Of a DNA stretch of 58,791 bases, positions 32,667 to 52,399 are shown in pieces. Under the pieces are notes generated by a model. That model had not been told where the DNA came from. It ran no database searches and saw nothing but the letters and a program-made list of their open reading frames with translations. This DNA comes from Candidatus Omnitrophota bacterium (lineage in GTDB: Bacteria; Omnitrophota; Gorgyraeia; JABMRN01; RBG-13-46-9): positions 866,245 to 925,035 of the forward strand of contig CP070780.1 of the NCBI GenBank assembly GCA_020346285.1. The letters run 5' to 3'. How positions within the stretch are numbered: the stretch's first letter is position 1; each line of letters starts with the position of its first letter. A program made the position numbers and the translations under genes.

Positions 32667-33032
32667 ATGCCTGACTCTAACTTTGAGGAAAAGAGACGGT
32701 TCCCCAGGGTTGAAAGCCGTTTTCCCTTAAAGTATAAAGACCTGAAGAAAACGGATGAAGAATCTAGGGGGAGTATCTCGAAAAATCTATCGGAAAACGG
32801 CGTGAGATTTAGAAGCGATAGATTCATATCTCTGGCCTGTCGTCTGGTTATCGAGATGAACTTTCCCGCCTTGTCGAAACCCGTAAAGGCTATTTCCAAA
32901 GTAGCATGGATAAGGAAATTGCCGGTAGGCGATGACTATGAAGTAGGAAATCAGTTTCTCGAAATCGCCAAAGAAGACAAAAATATCATCCAGAGCTTTG
33001 TAAAGACAGAGTTCAGAATACCTTCACTTTAA
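32667..33032 (+). CDS. PilZ-domain protein
   Basis: 121 residues. The c-di-GMP-binding motifs are present: RRFPR (about 10-14, RxxxR type) and NLSENGVRF (about 45-53, the D/N-x-S-x-x-G motif). A single PilZ domain fills the protein, so it is a stand-alone receptor. It has its own promoter and a structured leader. A second PilZ gene is at 48925. Confidence 0.9.
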   Translation: MPDSNFEEKRRFPRVESRFPLKYKDLKKTDEESRGSISKNLSENGVRFRSDRFISLACRLVIEMNFPALSKPVKAISKVAWIRKLPVGDDYEVGNQFLEIAKEDKNIIQSFVKTEFRIPSL

Positions 33033-43100: not shown

Positions 43101-43307
43101 GCGGGTCCCGAGAAAAAAGAAATGCTCCCGCCTTCGGCGGGATCCCGGAGAACTTCACCCGGAGAAACTCCATTCGGGGCGCAGCCAATGCCGGATACAA
43201 GGCCGTCCCGGGAGACGACGTATAGAAGAGAAAACGTTAAAGTCGGCAGGAATGAGCCCTGCCCCTGTGGAAGCGGGCTTAAATACAAAAAATGTTGTGG
43301 AAAATAA
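40143..43307 (+). CDS. secA: Preprotein translocase ATPase SecA
   Basis: 1054 residues. Walker A is [14 protein letters not shown] (about 137-146), with [11 protein letters not shown] as the DEAD-like Walker B. The crosslinking domain holds an extra helical segment of about 130 residues (roughly 285-420), as seen in some SecA proteins. The helical scaffold and wing are followed by a C-terminal zinc-binding tail [18 protein letters not shown]. It drives protein export through SecYEG. The tail linker contains a small CCCGCC-TTC-GGCGGG hairpin. The start overlaps prfB by 4 bases and the end overlaps lnt. Confidence 0.97.
43127..43141. repeat. Small hairpin in the secA linker
   Basis: CCCGCC-TTC-GGCGGG, a 6-bp stem with a 3-base loop, coding for PPSAG in the flexible linker before the zinc tail. 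Confidence 0.5.
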
Positions 43308-45337
43308 TCTTTTCGGCGTTCCTTTTAATCCTGGCTTACCCGAATTTTAATTTAGAATACTTAGCGTGGATTGCGCTTATTCCTCTATTCTTTGCCCTTG
43401 AGAACAAGAATATAAAACAAAGGTTTGTTGCGGGATATATATTTGGAGTCATATTTTTTTCAGGTATTTTGTACTGGCTTACAAACGTAACTGTTCCCGG
43501 CACAATTATATTGATACTTTTGCTTTCGTTAGCCCCCGCGATTTTTTGCCTGCTCTATGCTACGCGCCGGGCCTCTTCGCTATATGCTATAATTTTTGTT
43601 CCTTCCGCCTGGGTCCTTACCGAAAACCTGCGCGCGCATCTTTTTACGGGATTTCCCTGGGCATTATTGGCGCATTCCCAGAGTTTGAATCTTCCCGTAA
43701 TACAGATAGCGGATATCACGGGCGCTTACGGTGTTTCGTTTTTGATTGTTCTTGTAAATTTTGGCGTGTATCTGGCATTAAAAAAGACGCCTAAAAGATT
43801 TTATATCTTATTTTTTATATTTATTTTGTTTAGCTTGACGTGGACATATGGCCAGAATAGAATCAACTATGTTTACCCTGCCCGCGGACTCAAGGTTTCG
43901 GTTATACAGGGAAATATCCCGCAACATATAAAGTGGGACCCGTCGTATAAAAAATTTATTATCGATAAATATTGCGCTCTTACCAAAGAATCCCTGAAAG
44001 AAAACCCGGACCTTGTAATCTGGCCGGAGACAGCTGTGCCGGGTTATTTAGAAGAGCCTTACCTGAAGCGTCAGGTGCTCGATCTCGCGAAGTCCGGAAA
44101 TACGCATCTTTTGGTAGGCACGCTTAGAGAAGAAGGCTACGAATTTTTTAACAGCGCTACGCTTATATCCGATAAAGGAGAGGTCTTGCAAAATTACGAC
44201 AAGATTCATCTTGTCCCGTTCGGCGAGTTTGTCCCTTTCGAAAAGCTCCTTTTTCCGATGCGCGCGTTTATCGACAAACCCATCGGCGATTTTGACAGGG
44301 GCTCGGAGTTCACGGTATTCAAGGCCGTATTTAGCGATGTTATTCCCAGCCCCCGGAACATTCAGAAAACTACCCGGTTCCATAGCTTTTCGGCTCTTAT
44401 ATGTTTTGAAGACATTTTTCCCGGCCTCTCAAGGCATTTGGTCAAAAAGGGCGCAAGGTTTTTAGTAAATATAACAAATGATGCGTGGTTCGGGAAGACC
44501 GCTGCCCCGTACCAGCATGCGCAGGGTTCTATTTTCAGAGCGGTTGAAAATCGTACGCCTGTTGTCCGTGCCGCAAATACAGGGCTTTCATGTATAATAG
44601 ACCATAAAGGAAAGATTTTAAAATCTGTTAGAACGGGAAAAGGCCAGATTTTCGTAGAGGGATATGTAGCAGGAATGATAATGCCCACTTTTACAAAAAC
44701 ATTTTACACGCGCTTCGGCGATGTGTTCAGCTGGCTTTGTATCGTTTTGGTTTTGTTTGGCCTTGTGCGGCGATCGCCGAAACCTGTCCAGATCCTGATT
44801 TTGGCGTTAATTCTTACCCATGCTTCCTCTGTTTACGGCGAAGATGAAATCCATTATAGGGAAAAATTTAAATTCGGCTTTCCTTTCGGCAAAAAATACA
44901 ATTATGACAATATACTTGTGACAAGAGTCATCGATGGCGATACCATAGAATTGCAAAATCGGGAAAGGGTAAGGCTTATAGGGATAGATACTCCCGAAGT
45001 GCGGTTCAACCCTAAACTCAAACGAGACGCAAAACGCACAAAAAAAGAGTATGAGGCTATAATCGCAATGGGGAAAATTGCCGCGGAGTTTACAAAAAAT
45101 CTTGTAGAAGGAAAAAAGGTAAAACTTGAATTTGATATTGAGAAAAAGGATAGATACGGAAGGCTGCTTGCTTATGTCTACCTGGCTGACGGCAGGATGC
45201 TCAATGCCGAACTCGTTAAAGAGGGATATGCAAATGTTTATACCTTTCCTCCGAACGTGAAGTATGTCGATATGTTTTTGGAGTTGCAGCGGGAAGCAAG
45301 AGAAAATAATAGGGGATTGTGGGATGAGAATGGTTGA
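43292..45337 (+). CDS. lnt: Apolipoprotein N-acyltransferase fused to a staphylococcal-type nuclease
   Basis: 681 residues. The N-terminal 500 residues are Lnt: six or seven membrane helices (about 1-190), then a nitrilase-like domain with the catalytic triad Glu246 ([10 protein letters not shown]), Lys304 ([14 protein letters not shown]) and Cys371 ([10 protein letters not shown]). It adds the third acyl chain to lipoproteins. After a final helix (about 470-490) and a second hydrophobic stretch ending HASSVYGED, a TNase/SNase domain follows (about 540-680). It carries [23 protein letters not shown] and [12 protein letters not shown] with the Arg and Glu residues of the active site. The nuclease should sit in the periplasm. 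Confidence 0.93.
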
Positions 45338-45362
45338 CATTCTTCCCTTTATACAGTAAACT
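45334..45362 (+). promoter_or_regulatory. Promoter of the GGDEF-PilZ operon
   Basis: TTGACA (overlapping the lnt stop codon), 17-base spacer, TAAACT, 33 bases before the ATG. Confidence 0.55.
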
Positions 45363-45395: not shown

Positions 45396-48300
45396 ATGCC
45401 TGACATACCCAGTATAGATTATAAAAAACTGCCACTTTCTTTAATAGACGACCTTACCCAACTGTGCAATCGCCGCTTCATTTACAATAACATGCCCGAC
45501 ATTATTGCCCAAGACAAAACCGCAGCCGGAAAAGCTTCCCTGTTAATGATAGATGTCGATAACTTTAAAAATATAAACGATACTTTCGGGCATCTGGCAG
45601 GGGATAAAGTGCTGGTTGAGTTAGCTAAAAGATTGGATAAATACGTTTCTAAAAAGGGCATTGTAGCCAGATATGCTGGGGACGAATTTGTAATTTTGTT
45701 TCCCGGCCAGGATGAAAAGCAAGCTTATAAACTTGGCGAGGCAATGTTACAAGACATATCAGGATTGGAATGGCCGATAAAAGACAAAAATTTCGAAGGA
45801 TTAGGCCTGAGCATAGGTGTTGCCGCTTATCCGGCAGACAGCGCTTCCCTGATAGATTTGATAAGATGCGCGGATGAGGCCTTATACGCCGCTAAAAACA
45901 CCGGTAAAAATAGAATTTTAGTTTATAAATCTATCGACAAGGAGATAAAAGACCGTATCAGATTAAGGCAGGTGTTTCTGAGGCCGCCTTTCATAGACCG
46001 CGAAAAGGAACTCGAAGGCCTTAAGAAAGATTACAAAACTTCTCAGGCAGGCAAGAGAAAAGCTTTACTGGTAGAGGGGGAATCCGGCATCGGGAAGACC
46101 AGGCTCCTGGAGGAATTTTCCGTCTCAGCCGAAAGACAGGATACGTTTTTGTTATTCCGTAAGTTAGGGCAGAGAGGTGAAGGCGGGCCTCTCGCAGGGT
46201 TGGCAAAATTACTTCACCTGGTGGTAAATTCGTTCGGCCTTAATAAATTCGGAGCCATTCTTTCCGAGCTTAAAGATTCAGAACTCGCAGAGGTTTTATA
46301 TATATATCCGATGTTTAAAAAGCTTGCCAAGGATGTGTCTCCCGCAACAAAACCGGAAGGAAGAGCGGCTGATCTTTTTTCCGGTCTATGCAAGATAATG
46401 CTTAAGGTTACTCGTGAAAAAACCCTCGTTTTAATTGTCGATAACCTCCATTACGCAAATCAGCTTACTTTACAATTTTTCTCGGTACTACTTGGAATCT
46501 CCAAATTGAATAAATTCCTTTTTATAGGAACATACGATAAAAAAGCCATAGAAAAGACGCTAAGGGATTTTTTGGCCAAAGGCCTTTTCACGACTATAAA
46601 GCTCGAGCCCCTGGCAAAAGATGAGGTAACCCAACTGATTGAATCAATTTTTCCGGGTATTAAGCCCGAGCCTAAGCTGGTTGAAAATCTATACAAGGCA
46701 AGTAAAGGGAATCCGCTTTTGCTGGGCGAAATATTAAAAACCCTGGTTGAAAACGGCAGCATGCAATATAAAAATAAACAGTGGCAATCGAAGGCTATCG
46801 GAGCCGGCGATATTCCGGCTTCTTTACGCGATACCGTTGAACCCAGGATTGATAGATTAGATGATGAAACAAAAGAAATGCTTTCCTATGTAGCGGTTAT
46901 GGGCGGAAAGGTCGAGCTGGATATTCTAAAAAAATTCAGCGGCTACAATGAAGGGCGCCTATTTGAGCTATTAGACCGTGCCATAAACGCCGGCGTAATA
47001 AAATTGTCGGATTTAAAAAGCTATGATTCAGTGTCTTTTCAGGCCGGCCCGGCCAGGGAAACACTGGCTAAGATGATTCCTGCCCAGAAAGCTGCGGGTT
47101 TAAATCAAAGACTTGCTGAACTTATCAAAGACCATTATAAAGATGAGCTTCCGGTCCAGCTTGATCGCTTAATTCGACATTTCGAGCTGGGCATGGACAA
47201 AGCTACCGCTTTGAAATATAAAAATATAGCTCGCGAGATAGGCCAGAGCTTTGCTTTATCCAAGAGGGTGAGGAGCCTTTTAGAAAAAATAGAAAGGCAG
47301 GAAGAAATACCGGTAAGTATTGAAGAGCTGCTGGAAAGGCCGCTTAGCGAGGCAAGCGCTAAAATTATCAAGGATGTGGTATCTGCCGTTAGAGCGGCTA
47401 TCGTGGGGGCGTTGCTTTATCCCGCCGGCAATAAAATGCGTTCGGATTTACAGGATAAAGCTTATGAAATGATTCTCGACGTCCTTCGCAAGGACCCTAC
47501 CCTAACATTCACCGACGCAGAAGATAAATTATTAATAAATGGCAGCGAGCCGAAACAATGGGATACAAAAAGCGCCATTGGTTTTGCCTTTATCAGCCTG
47601 ATGAGAGATTATAATATTAGCAGTATAACCTTTAAGCATGGATTAGGAAAACAAGAATTTACATATTTTTTACATTGTATTGCGACCCCCGAAGAAGAAG
47701 TCAAAAACCAGGGAGGGCTTGTAGCGCTGTTTGAAAAAGGAAGTATCGCGCATATAAAAGTTGACGAAGTAAAATATGAAAAGCTCTCAAAGCTAACGGA
47801 AAGGGCCATTGGAATCAAAGGAATTAAGCAGCAAGAAACATTTTCGACAAGCCAGTTATCGAAGGGTAATTTGCTGGACATGCCTGTCGAACAGTATTTC
47901 GATCCAAAAATATTGGGTAAACTCGATCTTATAATCGAAGCATTTCTCTTGAATAAAAAAGATGCCAAGGTTGAAAAAATAACTAATAAATTATCGGAAA
48001 ATCTGGATACCACAGACGCCGCGGATAAAACAACGATTGCCGAAGGAGCTGTTCAACTTAGCAAATCCCTTCTTAAATATGAGAAGTTCCATCTTTTAGA
48101 AACATTGACAGGTTCGTTAATCAATAGATCTCGTAGAGCCAAGCAACCTAAAGAATTTGCAGAGCTTTCTGCAGGGCTTCAAATGATAGCCAATCGTCTC
48201 ATAGGTAAAGAAAACTTCGGCCAGGCGAGAACAATTATCAAGCACTTTAAAGAACAGATTGAGCCCGATTCGGCTTACACCGAACAGCAGAAAAAAGTCG

Positions 48301-48920
48301 TAGAGGAAGAATTCCAGAAGATCGCGCATCCCAAGGTAACCGAGGCTTTAGTAAATGCTCTTAAGCAAAAACTGGATTCCAGCAGTTACAGAAATATCAC
48401 AGAAATCCTGGCAGAACTCGGCGGATACGCCTTGAATTCCCTGCTTAAACTTTTAACCGAAGAAGAAGCCCCTAAAAAAGACGCGTTTGATCTTTATGTT
48501 ATGCGGCACTCGGTCGCCACGATACTGAAAAAAATAGGCCAGCCGGCAAAAGATGCTTTGAAAGAAATGCTGTCTGATAATCGCCCTTATGTTGTAAAAA
48601 ATGTCATAGAAGTGCTCGGCTACATCGGTGGCGAAGATGTGGTGAAAATATTAGCGCCTTGTTTCCAGGGCACTTCCACCCAAGTACGAATGCAATGCGT
48701 TCTCTCGCTGAAGAAAATCCACACGAAAGAAGCTCTAAAAAGCCTGCTTGAATTGCTGAAAGACAGCGATGGGAGTATAAGACAAGCAGCGAGCCTGGCA
48801 ATAGCGGAAATAGCCGACCCATCTTTTGAAAAGGAACTGGCGCCTCTTTTGGCAAACAGGTCAACAAAAAGCATAGCGGAAAAAACAATTCAGAAAATAC
48901 GGGCAAAAAAGAAAAAATAA
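45396..48920 (+). CDS. GGDEF-STAND ATPase-HEAT repeat signalling protein
   Basis: 1174 residues. A GGDEF domain (about 10-175) has the active-type signature RYAGDEF (A94-F98) and DVDNFKNINDTFGH upstream; no RxxD inhibitory site is seen before it. A P-loop ATPase of the AAA_16/STAND type follows, with Walker A GESGIGKT near 227-234 and Walker B VLIVDNLHYAN near 345. Then come winged-helix-like and long helical regions (about 480-1000) of no recognised family. At the end are four or five HEAT-type repeats (about 1030-1170, for example DNRPYVVKNVIEVLGYIGGEDVV). It presumably makes c-di-GMP under control of the ATPase and HEAT parts. A PilZ gene follows after 4 bases. The architecture is not one I recognise. 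Confidence 0.85.
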   Translation: MPDIPSIDYKKLPLSLIDDLTQLCNRRFIYNNMPDIIAQDKTAAGKASLLMIDVDNFKNINDTFGHLAGDKVLVELAKRLDKYVSKKGIVARYAGDEFVILFPGQDEKQAYKLGEAMLQDISGLEWPIKDKNFEGLGLSIGVAAYPADSASLIDLIRCADEALYAAKNTGKNRILVYKSIDKEIKDRIRLRQVFLRPPFIDREKELEGLKKDYKTSQAGKRKALLVEGESGIGKTRLLEEFSVSAERQDTFLLFRKLGQRGEGGPLAGLAKLLHLVVNSFGLNKFGAILSELKDSELAEVLYIYPMFKKLAKDVSPATKPEGRAADLFSGLCKIMLKVTREKTLVLIVDNLHYANQLTLQFFSVLLGISKLNKFLFIGTYDKKAIEKTLRDFLAKGLFTTIKLEPLAKDEVTQLIESIFPGIKPEPKLVENLYKASKGNPLLLGEILKTLVENGSMQYKNKQWQSKAIGAGDIPASLRDTVEPRIDRLDDETKEMLSYVAVMGGKVELDILKKFSGYNEGRLFELLDRAINAGVIKLSDLKSYDSVSFQAGPARETLAKMIPAQKAAGLNQRLAELIKDHYKDELPVQLDRLIRHFELGMDKATALKYKNIAREIGQSFALSKRVRSLLEKIERQEEIPVSIEELLERPLSEASAKIIKDVVSAVRAAIVGALLYPAGNKMRSDLQDKAYEMILDVLRKDPTLTFTDAEDKLLINGSEPKQWDTKSAIGFAFISLMRDYNISSITFKHGLGKQEFTYFLHCIATPEEEVKNQGGLVALFEKGSIAHIKVDEVKYEKLSKLTERAIGIKGIKQQETFSTSQLSKGNLLDMPVEQYFDPKILGKLDLIIEAFLLNKKDAKVEKITNKLSENLDTTDAADKTTIAEGAVQLSKSLLKYEKFHLLETLTGSLINRSRRAKQPKEFAELSAGLQMIANRLIGKENFGQARTIIKHFKEQIEPDSAYTEQQKKVVEEEFQKIAHPKVTEALVNALKQKLDSSSYRNITEILAELGGYALNSLLKLLTEEEAPKKDAFDLYVMRHSVATILKKIGQPAKDALKEMLSDNRPYVVKNVIEVLGYIGGEDVVKILAPCFQGTSTQVRMQCVLSLKKIHTKEALKSLLELLKDSDGSIRQAASLAIAEIADPSFEKELAPLLANRSTKSIAEKTIQKIRAKKKK

Positions 48921-48924
48921 TCAG

Positions 48925-49320
48925 ATGAGAAAAATTGAATATATAGGCCCGGAAAGAAGAAAATACTTAAGGTTCCCCCGCCGCTGTGTTGTAAAATATG
49001 CAAAATTGTCAAAGAGTAACTTAAGGCCTCTTGTCAACCTGACAATAAAATCCTATACGAAGGAAATAAGCGGCGCAGGAATCAAATTTATTGCGCGCAA
49101 AAAGATGTCGATACATACAATTATAGAATTTCAGTTTAACATTCCTGAGATTAATAGGCCCATAAATGGTCTCGGCGAAGTGGTTAGAGTTAAAGTAAGA
49201 CCGGGTGGAAGGTCTTATAATGTGGCCATGAAGTTTATCTGGATGCAGAAAAAGAATATCGACTTAATCGATGGTTACATACGGAAAAAAAGGATACAAC
49301 AAGTTATGAAAAAACTCTGA
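48925..49320 (+). CDS. PilZ-domain protein
   Basis: 131 residues with a c-di-GMP-binding arginine motif (RRKYLR near residue 11-16) and EISGAGIKF near residue 46-54. Glu replaces the usual Asp/Asn at the start of the second motif. Single-domain receptor, co-transcribed with the GGDEF protein (4-base gap), so it is the obvious first partner. A 30-bp palindrome follows 3 bases after the stop. Confidence 0.85.
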   Translation: MRKIEYIGPERRKYLRFPRRCVVKYAKLSKSNLRPLVNLTIKSYTKEISGAGIKFIARKKMSIHTIIEFQFNIPEINRPINGLGEVVRVKVRPGGRSYNVAMKFIWMQKKNIDLIDGYIRKKRIQQVMKKL

Positions 49321-49323
49321 TCA

Positions 49324-49353
49324 CAGTAGGTCACCCTTAAGGGTGACCTACTG
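49324..49353. repeat. GTAGGTCACCC palindrome, solo copy
   Basis: Perfect 30-bp palindrome with arms CAGTAGGTCACCCTT and AAGGGTGACCTACTG. The same core flanks the transposase at 52430 and 52984, about 3 kb downstream. No T-run follows. Confidence 0.92.
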
Positions 49354-49558: not shown

Positions 49559-52399
49559 ATGAAAAAAATAATATCTCTGGTTGTTATTTTTTGTTTTTTT
49601 ATAAGTAATGTTAGTTTCGCAATTAACCTCCCATTAGATAATACCTCTAATAATAACGGAACAAATCTCGCAGTCCCTTCATTACTCAAGAATATTTTAG
49701 ATAAAACCGGAGCAATTAATGAGGCGGAAAATATTAAACTCTGGCTTGCGGCGTGCTTACGGAGTATAGCGGCCGAAGGATTCGATTTTAAAACAGCGAC
49801 ACCCGAAGAAATCCGCGATCGTCTCAAAGAATTGGGCGAGCCGAGAAATGCGGAGATATTCCATCCAAAAGAGACTCAATTTTTTGTTCATGAGGCCACA
49901 ATAGAGGGTGACCGCGTGCGAGTAACAGCCCGAGTAAAAAGGGATAACTCTTTAAGGACTTATAATATCACTTTTTCCGGCCCGGAAACTATATACGTAA
50001 ACCTAAAGAGAGATTCAAAAGACAGCATTCCATCCAAGGGTATTTTTGAAGATATGGAATCTCTTGTGGAATTCTTAAGAGGGATAGTGGAATTTGATGT
50101 CAAAGGAACGGTAAAACTTATTGAAGGCGAAGAAGATGCCTTCATAGAAAGATTACCCGTTTTGGTTTACAACATCTCGGTTAATCCGGAAGATTCTATC
50201 AGAGACGCGATAGAATGGATGATTTTGGAATTAGGCCCCCAGCTTCCTGTAAATAGTGCTATTCCTGCTTCAACGCAAAAACTCTATAGAACAATAGGAA
50301 GGGAGTACTACAAGAAATCGGCCATTCTGAAAATAAACCAAAGGGCGTTGATACCATATCTCTATCGAATAATGCTTAAGGTGATGAGAGAGCATAATGT
50401 GGCAATGATAAGCCAGATTGCCATATCCGAAGCCATATATATTGTTGGCGGCGATGCTAAGAAATCCCCGGCTATTAATATAGCTCAGGCTATATTGGCG
50501 GGAAGAACAAGTCGCGAAGGGGCTACACCTGTTTTCAATTCAAGGGATCATCTGCAGGTAGATAAAAAACTTTACGACAAAAATTCTGCAATGGCTTTAA
50601 GAAATAGGGCAGATACAATCCGGGAGGATATTCTCGAAGACAAAATATATAGCGTAGATTTGGATACGTCTACCATAGCCCGGACCCCTGATGAGATGCC
50701 CGGTTCCGTTGCAGAACAGCAAAGGCCCAATTTTGAGACAGCCGTTAAGTACACCATTTTTGTCAGGTTGTTGGAGAAAATATACGGTTTGCCGGGTATT
50801 GCCCTTAATGGCGAAGTAGGCGAAGTAGGAACAGAAGAGGTAACGCCTGAAGAACTAAGAGCGTATTTAACAGGTTACAAGCTTACGCTAGGCAAATTTA
50901 TGAACTTCAGTCCAAAACAAAAATTAGAATGGATTGAAAACAATAATTACATCTTCTGGTTTAGCGAAGAAGAAATGGCTAAAATAAAAGAAATCGTACA
51001 AGATAAAGCAATGCATTTTGATGGCCTTGAGGCAATGAGCTGCCAGGTTGGCACGGCACACGGAGGAGTAAAGGTACCCGGTAGGCCGTGGGAGCGAACC
51101 AGTGAAAGGGTAGTAAACATGGAACGGCTCGAGGAACTGGCCGATATATGCCGGAGTTTTGGATTGGCCGGACTTATACTGCACGGCGCGTCCAGTATTT
51201 CCGAAGATGAACTTAAAGAAGCTGTAGAAAGAGGAGCAATCGCGGTTCACCTTGCTACTTATATTCATGATAGAATCTTTAGCCATCCGGAATTCCCGAC
51301 AAAGCTGATATCAAAGCTGTTTAAACTTATAAAAGAAAGGAATAAAAAACTCTATGACACCCCGATAGATAAACATACCCAGCATATTACAATAGGTGAT
51401 ATAATACAGGAAATACAAGGAACCATTGAAATTGAAAAACCGCTTAGCGAGGAACAGCGGCAGCAAGTAGCCTGGATTGTCCACCAGGCCAGAGGGAAGG
51501 GCGTATCAAAAGAACAACATGATAAAGGAGAAGGCCTATGGTCATTTATCGACCTTGAGCAAGATATGCTGGATTTACCGAAGGAGACGCTTGCCGAGCT
51601 TAACAAGGTAGTTGAGGAGCAGATTCTGCGCTATGTCGAGCTATTGAACGCCAAAGGCACAGGCGATATAATAAAAGATATGGAATTTCCGACACCGCCT
51701 CCTGCGCCCATGCCGGAGCCGTTAAAGGACCACATAGCCGATCCCCCCGACGCCGAGCCTTCATCGGAAATAAATAAGATGAAAACCACTGCAACTCGAG
51801 TCGGCTTGGAGATTCCCACCCATTTAAATACGAGATATACCCTCCTACTCGCTACGGAATTTTTTGCGGATAGCAAAGAATTTAAAAAACATGAAACCGA
51901 ATTTAGAGACAGATTCAATCTCGGAACGGTGGGTGGAAGAACAGCCGAACAATTTATTGATAATGTACTGGCAAAAGCTAGAGGAATCGAACATAGAACA
52001 GTGGTCCTTCTTCCTGACAGAATATCCCGTAGGTGGCTCGAGAGACTTACAGCCGTAGGGATAAGGTTTATCAGAACAGATGTTGAAGATCTCGTAGAGG
52101 CAAGAGTTAACAAAGATGTAAATAGAACAACGTTTCAATTAAATACCTACGCTACTATGTTGCTTATACGCCATATAGATAGAAGCATAGGCAGAGAATC
52201 CCCATTATATCGTATTTTAAGTTTCTATATAAAATCACACTTTAAATTAGACAGTAATGTTGAAATTGAAGATTACATCCAAGCTATTATTACCGGTAAT
52301 ATAGCCATATTAATTAGAGGATATCTATCTTACAGGCCTGCCAAACCGTATCAGGCACCGGACTACGAAAAAATTGCTGCAGCATTAATCTCAGCGTAA
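49559..52399 (+). CDS. Exported protein with class II aldolase-like domain
   Basis: 946 residues with a clear Sec signal peptide (MKKIISLVVIFCFFISNVSFA|INL) and a strong GGAGGGG ribosome binding site. Residues about 355-580 resemble class II fructose-bisphosphate/tagatose aldolase: GEVGEVGTEEV (Glu422), CQVGTAHGGVK (His501) and GLILHGASSISEDELKEA (His542), which match three metal or active-site positions. The LDH motif expected in the barrel start reads SVDLDTST (365-372), so that zinc His is replaced. The N-terminal 350 residues and C-terminal 350 residues are not recognised; a Pro-rich linker (about 710-740) separates the last domain. Such an enzyme domain outside the cytoplasm is unexpected; catalysis is doubtful. 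Confidence 0.75.
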   Translation: MKKIISLVVIFCFFISNVSFAINLPLDNTSNNNGTNLAVPSLLKNILDKTGAINEAENIKLWLAACLRSIAAEGFDFKTATPEEIRDRLKELGEPRNAEIFHPKETQFFVHEATIEGDRVRVTARVKRDNSLRTYNITFSGPETIYVNLKRDSKDSIPSKGIFEDMESLVEFLRGIVEFDVKGTVKLIEGEEDAFIERLPVLVYNISVNPEDSIRDAIEWMILELGPQLPVNSAIPASTQKLYRTIGREYYKKSAILKINQRALIPYLYRIMLKVMREHNVAMISQIAISEAIYIVGGDAKKSPAINIAQAILAGRTSREGATPVFNSRDHLQVDKKLYDKNSAMALRNRADTIREDILEDKIYSVDLDTSTIARTPDEMPGSVAEQQRPNFETAVKYTIFVRLLEKIYGLPGIALNGEVGEVGTEEVTPEELRAYLTGYKLTLGKFMNFSPKQKLEWIENNNYIFWFSEEEMAKIKEIVQDKAMHFDGLEAMSCQVGTAHGGVKVPGRPWERTSERVVNMERLEELADICRSFGLAGLILHGASSISEDELKEAVERGAIAVHLATYIHDRIFSHPEFPTKLISKLFKLIKERNKKLYDTPIDKHTQHITIGDIIQEIQGTIEIEKPLSEEQRQQVAWIVHQARGKGVSKEQHDKGEGLWSFIDLEQDMLDLPKETLAELNKVVEEQILRYVELLNAKGTGDIIKDMEFPTPPPAPMPEPLKDHIADPPDAEPSSEINKMKTTATRVGLEIPTHLNTRYTLLLATEFFADSKEFKKHETEFRDRFNLGTVGGRTAEQFIDNVLAKARGIEHRTVVLLPDRISRRWLERLTAVGIRFIRTDVEDLVEARVNKDVNRTTFQLNTYATMLLIRHIDRSIGRESPLYRILSFYIKSHFKLDSNVEIEDYIQAIITGNIAILIRGYLSYRPAKPYQAPDYEKIAAALISA

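Follow-up and report, generated by a model that had tools for sequence, protein, structure and literature searches.

In the TOMM kinase/cyclase fusion (TIGR03903) and in other class III cyclase-STAND proteins, a signal-generating enzyme and a STAND ATPase are found on the same chain, and human soluble adenylyl cyclase also belongs in this comparison. Here, we describe a protein of 1174 amino acids (aa) from Candidatus Omnitrophota bacterium which shares with the TOMM fusion a STAND segment of ~400 aa in matching order, while its enzyme is a GGDEF domain with cyclic di-GMP (c-di-GMP) as the likely product. It would be the c-di-GMP counterpart of the cyclase-STAND proteins. The gene lies in a stretch of 58,791 nucleotides (the window; assembly GCA_020346285.1, contig CP070780.1, positions 866,245 to 925,035) of a genome that consists of one contig of 1.43 Mb, and it is followed after 4 bases by a gene for a PilZ protein of 131 aa. 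An earlier interpretation, made without database searches (the sequence-only reading), had given the coordinates of both open reading frames and their spacing exactly, and its domain plan of GGDEF, STAND-like ATPase, and C-terminal HEAT repeats is borne out by Pfam matches and motifs. It had overlooked an additional domain (domain X, aa ~655–795), the relatives that are paired with MshEN proteins, and a second PilZ gene in the window. We consider it somewhat likely (probability about 0.55) that the pair is a two-gene c-di-GMP unit, consisting of a STAND-switched diguanylate cyclase and an adjacent PilZ receptor, which has moved from a pilus/MshEN circuit.

Among the known c-di-GMP systems, FimX is a degenerate GGDEF-EAL receptor. 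In the PilB-PilZ-FimX complex of type IV pili (PMC8389850), too, a PilZ protein is combined with one of GGDEF type to give a single regulatory module; in the window, however, the GGDEF domain looks competent from its residues, an EAL domain is lacking, and the pair is not part of a pilus operon. MshEN receptors (PMC5013675) are of the type encoded beside 21 relatives of the window protein, and PilZ takes their place in the clade of the window. The MshEN of these relatives is a lone domain rather than being fused to an ATPase, and c-di-GMP binding by MshEN is established in other bacteria, not for these Omnitrophota proteins (PMC5013675). Vibrio cholerae VCA0965 shares the AGDEF motif, the rest of its GGDEF domain being conserved; it has an RxxD inhibitory site (I-site), which is missing from the window protein, and the available part of the report describes no STAND ATPase or HEAT region (PMC3974145).

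In STAND proteins, a closed form with bound ADP gives way to multimers that bind ATP and carry an effector at one end (PMC6468293). MalT and PH0952 (PMC6468293) resemble the window protein in having a P-loop core with Walker A, Walker B, and a GxP-type motif, an N-terminal effector, and C-terminal repeats. The window protein differs by a GGDEF domain in place of the DNA-binding effector and by the extra domain X between core and repeats, and its switching by ATP is presumed. Input from an NTPase into a cyclase has a precedent in Escherichia coli, where DgcE is activated by the GTPase RdcA (PMC6510439). As proposed for the window protein, the diguanylate cyclase is under the control of a P-loop NTPase, but DgcE and RdcA/RdcB are separate proteins, with a dynamin-like GTPase and docking via MASE1, whereas the ATPase of the window protein is fused to its cyclase in one chain.

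The GGDEF domain deviates from the canonical GG(D/E)EF motif by an alanine at the first position, as is typical of the family (27 of 31 alignment rows). Wherever these positions are visible, the residues D53, N61, D62, D70, D96, E97, D160, and K167 are the same in every family member. As an AGDEF site can be active, as in VCA0965 (PMC3974145), the domain looks competent, and cyclase activity is predicted from its sequence. That the domain has no inhibitory site, as stated in the sequence-only reading, proved correct, since the window protein has SKKG instead of RxxD at the I-site position; the site is frequent in diguanylate cyclases and is not required. RxxD is absent from all six PilZ-paired copies (for G158, the N-terminus was taken from contig L104). 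Of the 19 MshEN-paired copies in which the GGDEF domain is visible, 14 have RxxD. This association between I-site and receptor type (Fisher p=0.003) was calculated without regard to common descent and is thus a correlation which may go back to a single event.

The STAND assignment rests on a Walker A motif (GESGIGKT), a Walker B motif (LVLIVDN, with D349), a GNP motif of the GxP type, and a predicted helical region after the core, all of which are present. Among protein families, this part matches best to the STAND segment of the TOMM kinase/cyclase proteins (E=2e-32). However, the score of 112 bits is far below the TIGR03903 cut-off (705.75) and only the STAND part matches, so that the window protein is related in part without being a member. 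A close-alignment search returned only the four known close relatives, all of them from Omnitrophota, together with distant STAND proteins, for example a kinase-STAND-TPR protein. A tblastn search of plasmids revealed no clear GGDEF-STAND protein among the matches listed, the long ones of which carry annotations of AAA or class III cyclase proteins. In the openly licensed papers covered, we found no description of the GGDEF-STAND-X-HEAT architecture.

The region beyond the GGDEF domain was searched in 384 Omnitrophota genomes, of which 47 matched. About 35 proteins, all from Omnitrophota and some of them cut by contig ends, have the GGDEF-STAND-X-HEAT plan, and their neighboring genes were inspected. 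The next gene codes for PilZ in the window and in G001, G158, G279, G334, and G029, which are all six genomes of one clade and represent three families. In 21 relatives it codes for a lone MshEN protein (~148–174 aa), and in four others (L041, L047, L085, L095) the contig ends beside the cyclase gene. The PilZ pair is kept while most flanking genes differ between the clade genomes; flanks are shared only by G029 and G158 (a zinc-ribbon/mraZ/mraW context) and by the two genomes from the same genus (g1). A conserved wider operon around the pair was therefore rejected. The pairing of signal producer and receptor that had been proposed for the window thus holds throughout the clade, but most relatives carry a lone MshEN instead, so that cyclase plus PilZ is one arrangement of a more general theme, a cyclase with an adjacent c-di-GMP receptor. 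The coupling of the wider family to another receptor strengthens the idea of a dedicated pair, of which PilZ is no longer an essential element.

The MshEN-paired copies are located in operons for type IV pili or type II secretion, together with genes of the PilB and PilC types and, in some cases, of the PilT type. In eight cases (L042, L043, L081, L082, L084, L087, L088, L098) the following ATPase has ~410 aa and is devoid of an MshEN domain of its own; from the gene order, it looks as if MshEN had been split off the pilus/secretion ATPase in these operons. The lone MshEN gene between the cyclase and the MshEN-less ATPase can be seen at L042:11369-13028, L043:7501-9166, L098:11581-13253, and similar loci. 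In L044, L045, L090, L091, and L096 a second lone MshEN gene is found elsewhere in the operon, so that the cyclase-adjacent copy is an extra one. The genome of the window has its own pilus operon (a HAMP-GAF-GGDEF type gene, PilT, lone MshEN, PilB, PilB, PilC), laid out as in relatives such as L040 and L083 except that the GGDEF-STAND gene is missing, which fits relocation or replacement. From the tree, the root of which is not fixed, we infer that the swap went from the pilus/MshEN circuit to PilZ.

The PilZ assignment of the partner protein is supported by a Pfam score of 29.4 bits (cut-off 22.5). The cyclase-adjacent PilZ proteins are 33–79% identical to that of the window, while PilZ paralogs from the same genome reach 21–29%. 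With the window PilZ as query against 58 relatives, the two cyclase-adjacent copies gave E-values of 6e-66 and 4e-22 and all others were no better than 1.6e-13, and this subfamily stands out only in genomes which carry the pair. The PilZ tree has the expected grouping with weak support (53/38).

The cyclase and PilZ genes are likely to form a two-gene transcription unit, given their 4-base gap, a promoter-like match upstream, a hairpin after the PilZ stop codon, and a gap of 238 bases followed by an unrelated gene downstream; co-transcription is presumed from this layout. Promoter-like matches of this kind are no more numerous across the region than expected by chance. The segment with the hairpin folds with -26.9 kcal/mol (z -5.65) and was missed by a terminator scan because it has no T run. 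The features of the locus are collected in the table.

Features of the two-gene locus (positions in the window; all on the forward strand)
Feature	Positions	Strand	Basis
Promoter-like TTGACA-17-TAAACT in the gap following the preceding gene	45334..45362	+	10 of 12 consensus positions
GGDEF-STAND-X-HEAT protein, putative STAND-switched diguanylate cyclase	45396..48920	+	Open reading frame, Pfam
GGDEF domain, aa 16–173	45441..45914	+	Pfam E=2e-42; fold match to solved GGDEF domains
I-site position, SKKG instead of RxxD, aa 85–88	45648..45659	+	Motif reading
Active-site motif AGDEF, aa 94–98	45675..45689	+	Motif reading; AGDEF active in VCA0965 (PMC3974145)
AAA_16/STAND nucleotide-binding domain, aa 199–373 (Walker A aa 228–235, Walker B around D349)	45990..46514	+	Pfam E=4e-15, motifs
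GNP motif, aa 438–440, GxP type expected of STAND ATPases	46707..46715	+	Motif reading
Unnamed domain X, aa ~655–795, conserved LYP and N(G) motifs	47358..47780	+	No Pfam family, confident model
Helical C-terminal region with HEAT repeats	47871..48917	+	Pfam HEAT_2 at aa 1093–1154, E=8e-17
PilZ partner gene, 131 aa, 4 bases downstream	48925..49320	+	Pfam E=1e-6; kept in 6/6 clade genomes
PilZ RxxxR motif RKYLR, aa 12–16	48958..48972	+	R12 and R16 invariant
PilZ second motif EISGAG (canonical (D/N)xSxxG)	49063..49080	+	Motif reading
13-bp perfect hairpin directly after the PilZ stop, possible transcript end, no T tract	49324..49353	+	

In the mechanism which we favor, an inducer or partner would dock on the X/HEAT region and open the STAND core, with ADP being replaced by ATP. 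That the HEAT or middle region senses a ligand is a guess. The open form would oligomerize and thereby pair the N-terminal GGDEF domains into the dimer that c-di-GMP synthesis requires, and the adjacent PilZ protein would read the product. Such ATP-gated multimerization is proposed by analogy to STAND proteins (PMC6468293) and to the GTPase-activated DgcE (PMC6510439); structure predictions were made for monomers. Without an I-site, there would be no product-feedback cut-off at that site, and the state of the ATPase would be the main control. The cyclase would originate from a family mostly encoded in pilus/secretion operons beside a lone MshEN, with the window clade residing outside of such operons and having PilZ instead. 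Private signaling between the cyclase and its PilZ is presumed in this mechanism. More generally, the family suggests that such c-di-GMP circuits are rewired by receptor swapping. A general question is by which means signals are kept apart in cells that have many c-di-GMP enzymes and receptors; with one enzyme family that is associated with two unrelated receptors, and a pilus operon of the same layout in the genome of the window that is devoid of the cyclase, specificity by pairing can be tested by a receptor swap.

Several observations weigh against this mechanism. The residue following D349 of Walker B is an asparagine in the window protein and in some relatives, so that ATP hydrolysis may be slow or impaired. 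The second PilZ motif is off consensus, with E for D/N in the window; it is DISGAG in G029 and DICxxG or DVAAGG in three others, in which C or A replaces the serine. Binding of c-di-GMP may thus be weak or lost, and this binding, predicted from sequence, is the weakest link of the mechanism. Four relatives (L086, L093, L099, L140) have no adjacent receptor. Support for the single clade of PilZ-paired cyclases is moderate (89/76), in a tree with an unfixed root. Pilus operons hold MshEN genes anyway, so that the adjacency of MshEN partly mirrors operon membership. Finally, the genome of the window has 8 matches to PilZ and 7 to MshEN, besides about ten further GGDEF loci, which argues against assuming a private circuit and leaves the earlier proposal of signaling local to a single PilZ effector unsupported.

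This abundance of c-di-GMP genes would also fit an ordinary diguanylate cyclase with STAND input, which delivers c-di-GMP to a common pool and has PilZ as a co-inherited neighbor without special coupling. The relatives without an adjacent receptor fit such a pool, as does the restriction of the sampled PilZ pairing to one clade, which may reflect a single event. We nevertheless consider this explanation unlikely, because the pair persists in different chromosomal settings and in three families, the PilZ subfamily tracks the pair, and in 21 relatives the place of PilZ is taken by an unrelated receptor. GGDEF domains can also serve as receptors, and the protein could be a nucleotide-sensing STAND scaffold in which GTP or c-di-GMP bound by GGDEF would be the input and the ATPase/HEAT part would act as the output, with PilZ as a partner subunit. 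The replacement of GGDEF by AGDEF in nearly all members would agree with this, and the large C-terminal helical region suits protein contacts. However, the catalytic and metal-binding residues, which a mere binding domain does not need, are all invariant, and the I-site, the usual c-di-GMP site of non-catalytic GGDEF domains, is missing in the PilZ-paired clade. Together with the activity of AGDEF in VCA0965 (PMC3974145), this makes the scaffold doubtful.

The sequence-only reading had also pointed to defence NTPases. The combination of a STAND ATPase, repeats, and a nucleotide cyclase would suit a conflict system akin to STAND immune NTPases, with a nucleotide signal as output, and NTP-dependent conflict systems do include nucleotide cyclases, if rarely GGDEF (PMC7159879). 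The patchy distribution (matches to the non-GGDEF part in 47 of 384 genomes) would also be in line with defence. PADLOC, however, returned only weak generic HEAT/ATPase matches and no system model with its partner genes, the relatives are found in pilus operons or beside housekeeping genes rather than in defence islands, and no toxin-like effector adjoins. The defence analogy thus found no support, and on the PADLOC result and the neighborhoods we rejected a defence system as highly improbable.

Domain X (~140 aa) has no match to a Pfam family. Its structure was predicted with a predicted local distance difference test score (pLDDT) of 87.8 and a predicted template modeling score (pTM) of 0.83, and neither sequence nor fold searches of the PDB returned anything credible (best fold E 0.36). 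It occurs in 100 of 237 Omnitrophota genomes, which makes it a phylum-wide signaling domain without a name or known fold. Nine further loci carry domain X fused to HD-domain proteins, HEAT-only proteins, or PAS-histidine kinases: it caps HD-domain proteins of ~450 aa, adjoining X-HEAT proteins of 640–750 aa, in L173, L174, L175, and L179, and PAS-histidine kinases in L176, L177, L178, L180, and L181. As a module, the C-terminal half of the window protein is thus separable from the rest. Tentatively, and with less confidence than for the window pair itself, the Omnitrophota proteins might be seen as a modular family in which one STAND-switched cyclase has exchanged its adjacent receptor (MshEN within pilus machines, PilZ elsewhere) and lost feedback after the exchange, with X and HEAT as an input module shared between c-di-GMP-making proteins, HD-domain proteins (which are possibly degrading), and histidine kinases.

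A GGDEF-STAND relative at L140:2443-7058 and, separately, an X-domain histidine kinase at L176:3099-7306 are each directly upstream of mreB. Other relatives are near mreC/mreD/PBP2/RodA or mraZ/mraW, a recurring link to genes for cell shape and division.

In the window, the second PilZ-domain protein (32667-33032, 121 aa) is ~23% identical to the partner of the cyclase. The gene preceding the cyclase (43292-45337) codes in a single open reading frame for apolipoprotein N-acyltransferase (lnt) with a C-terminal staphylococcal-nuclease-like domain. The gene following PilZ (49559-52399) codes for a protein of 946 aa with an apparent signal peptide and an odd architecture, in which the match to class II fructose-bisphosphate aldolase is merely partial (aa 477–576); an open reading frame at L113:2905-3690 starts similarly.

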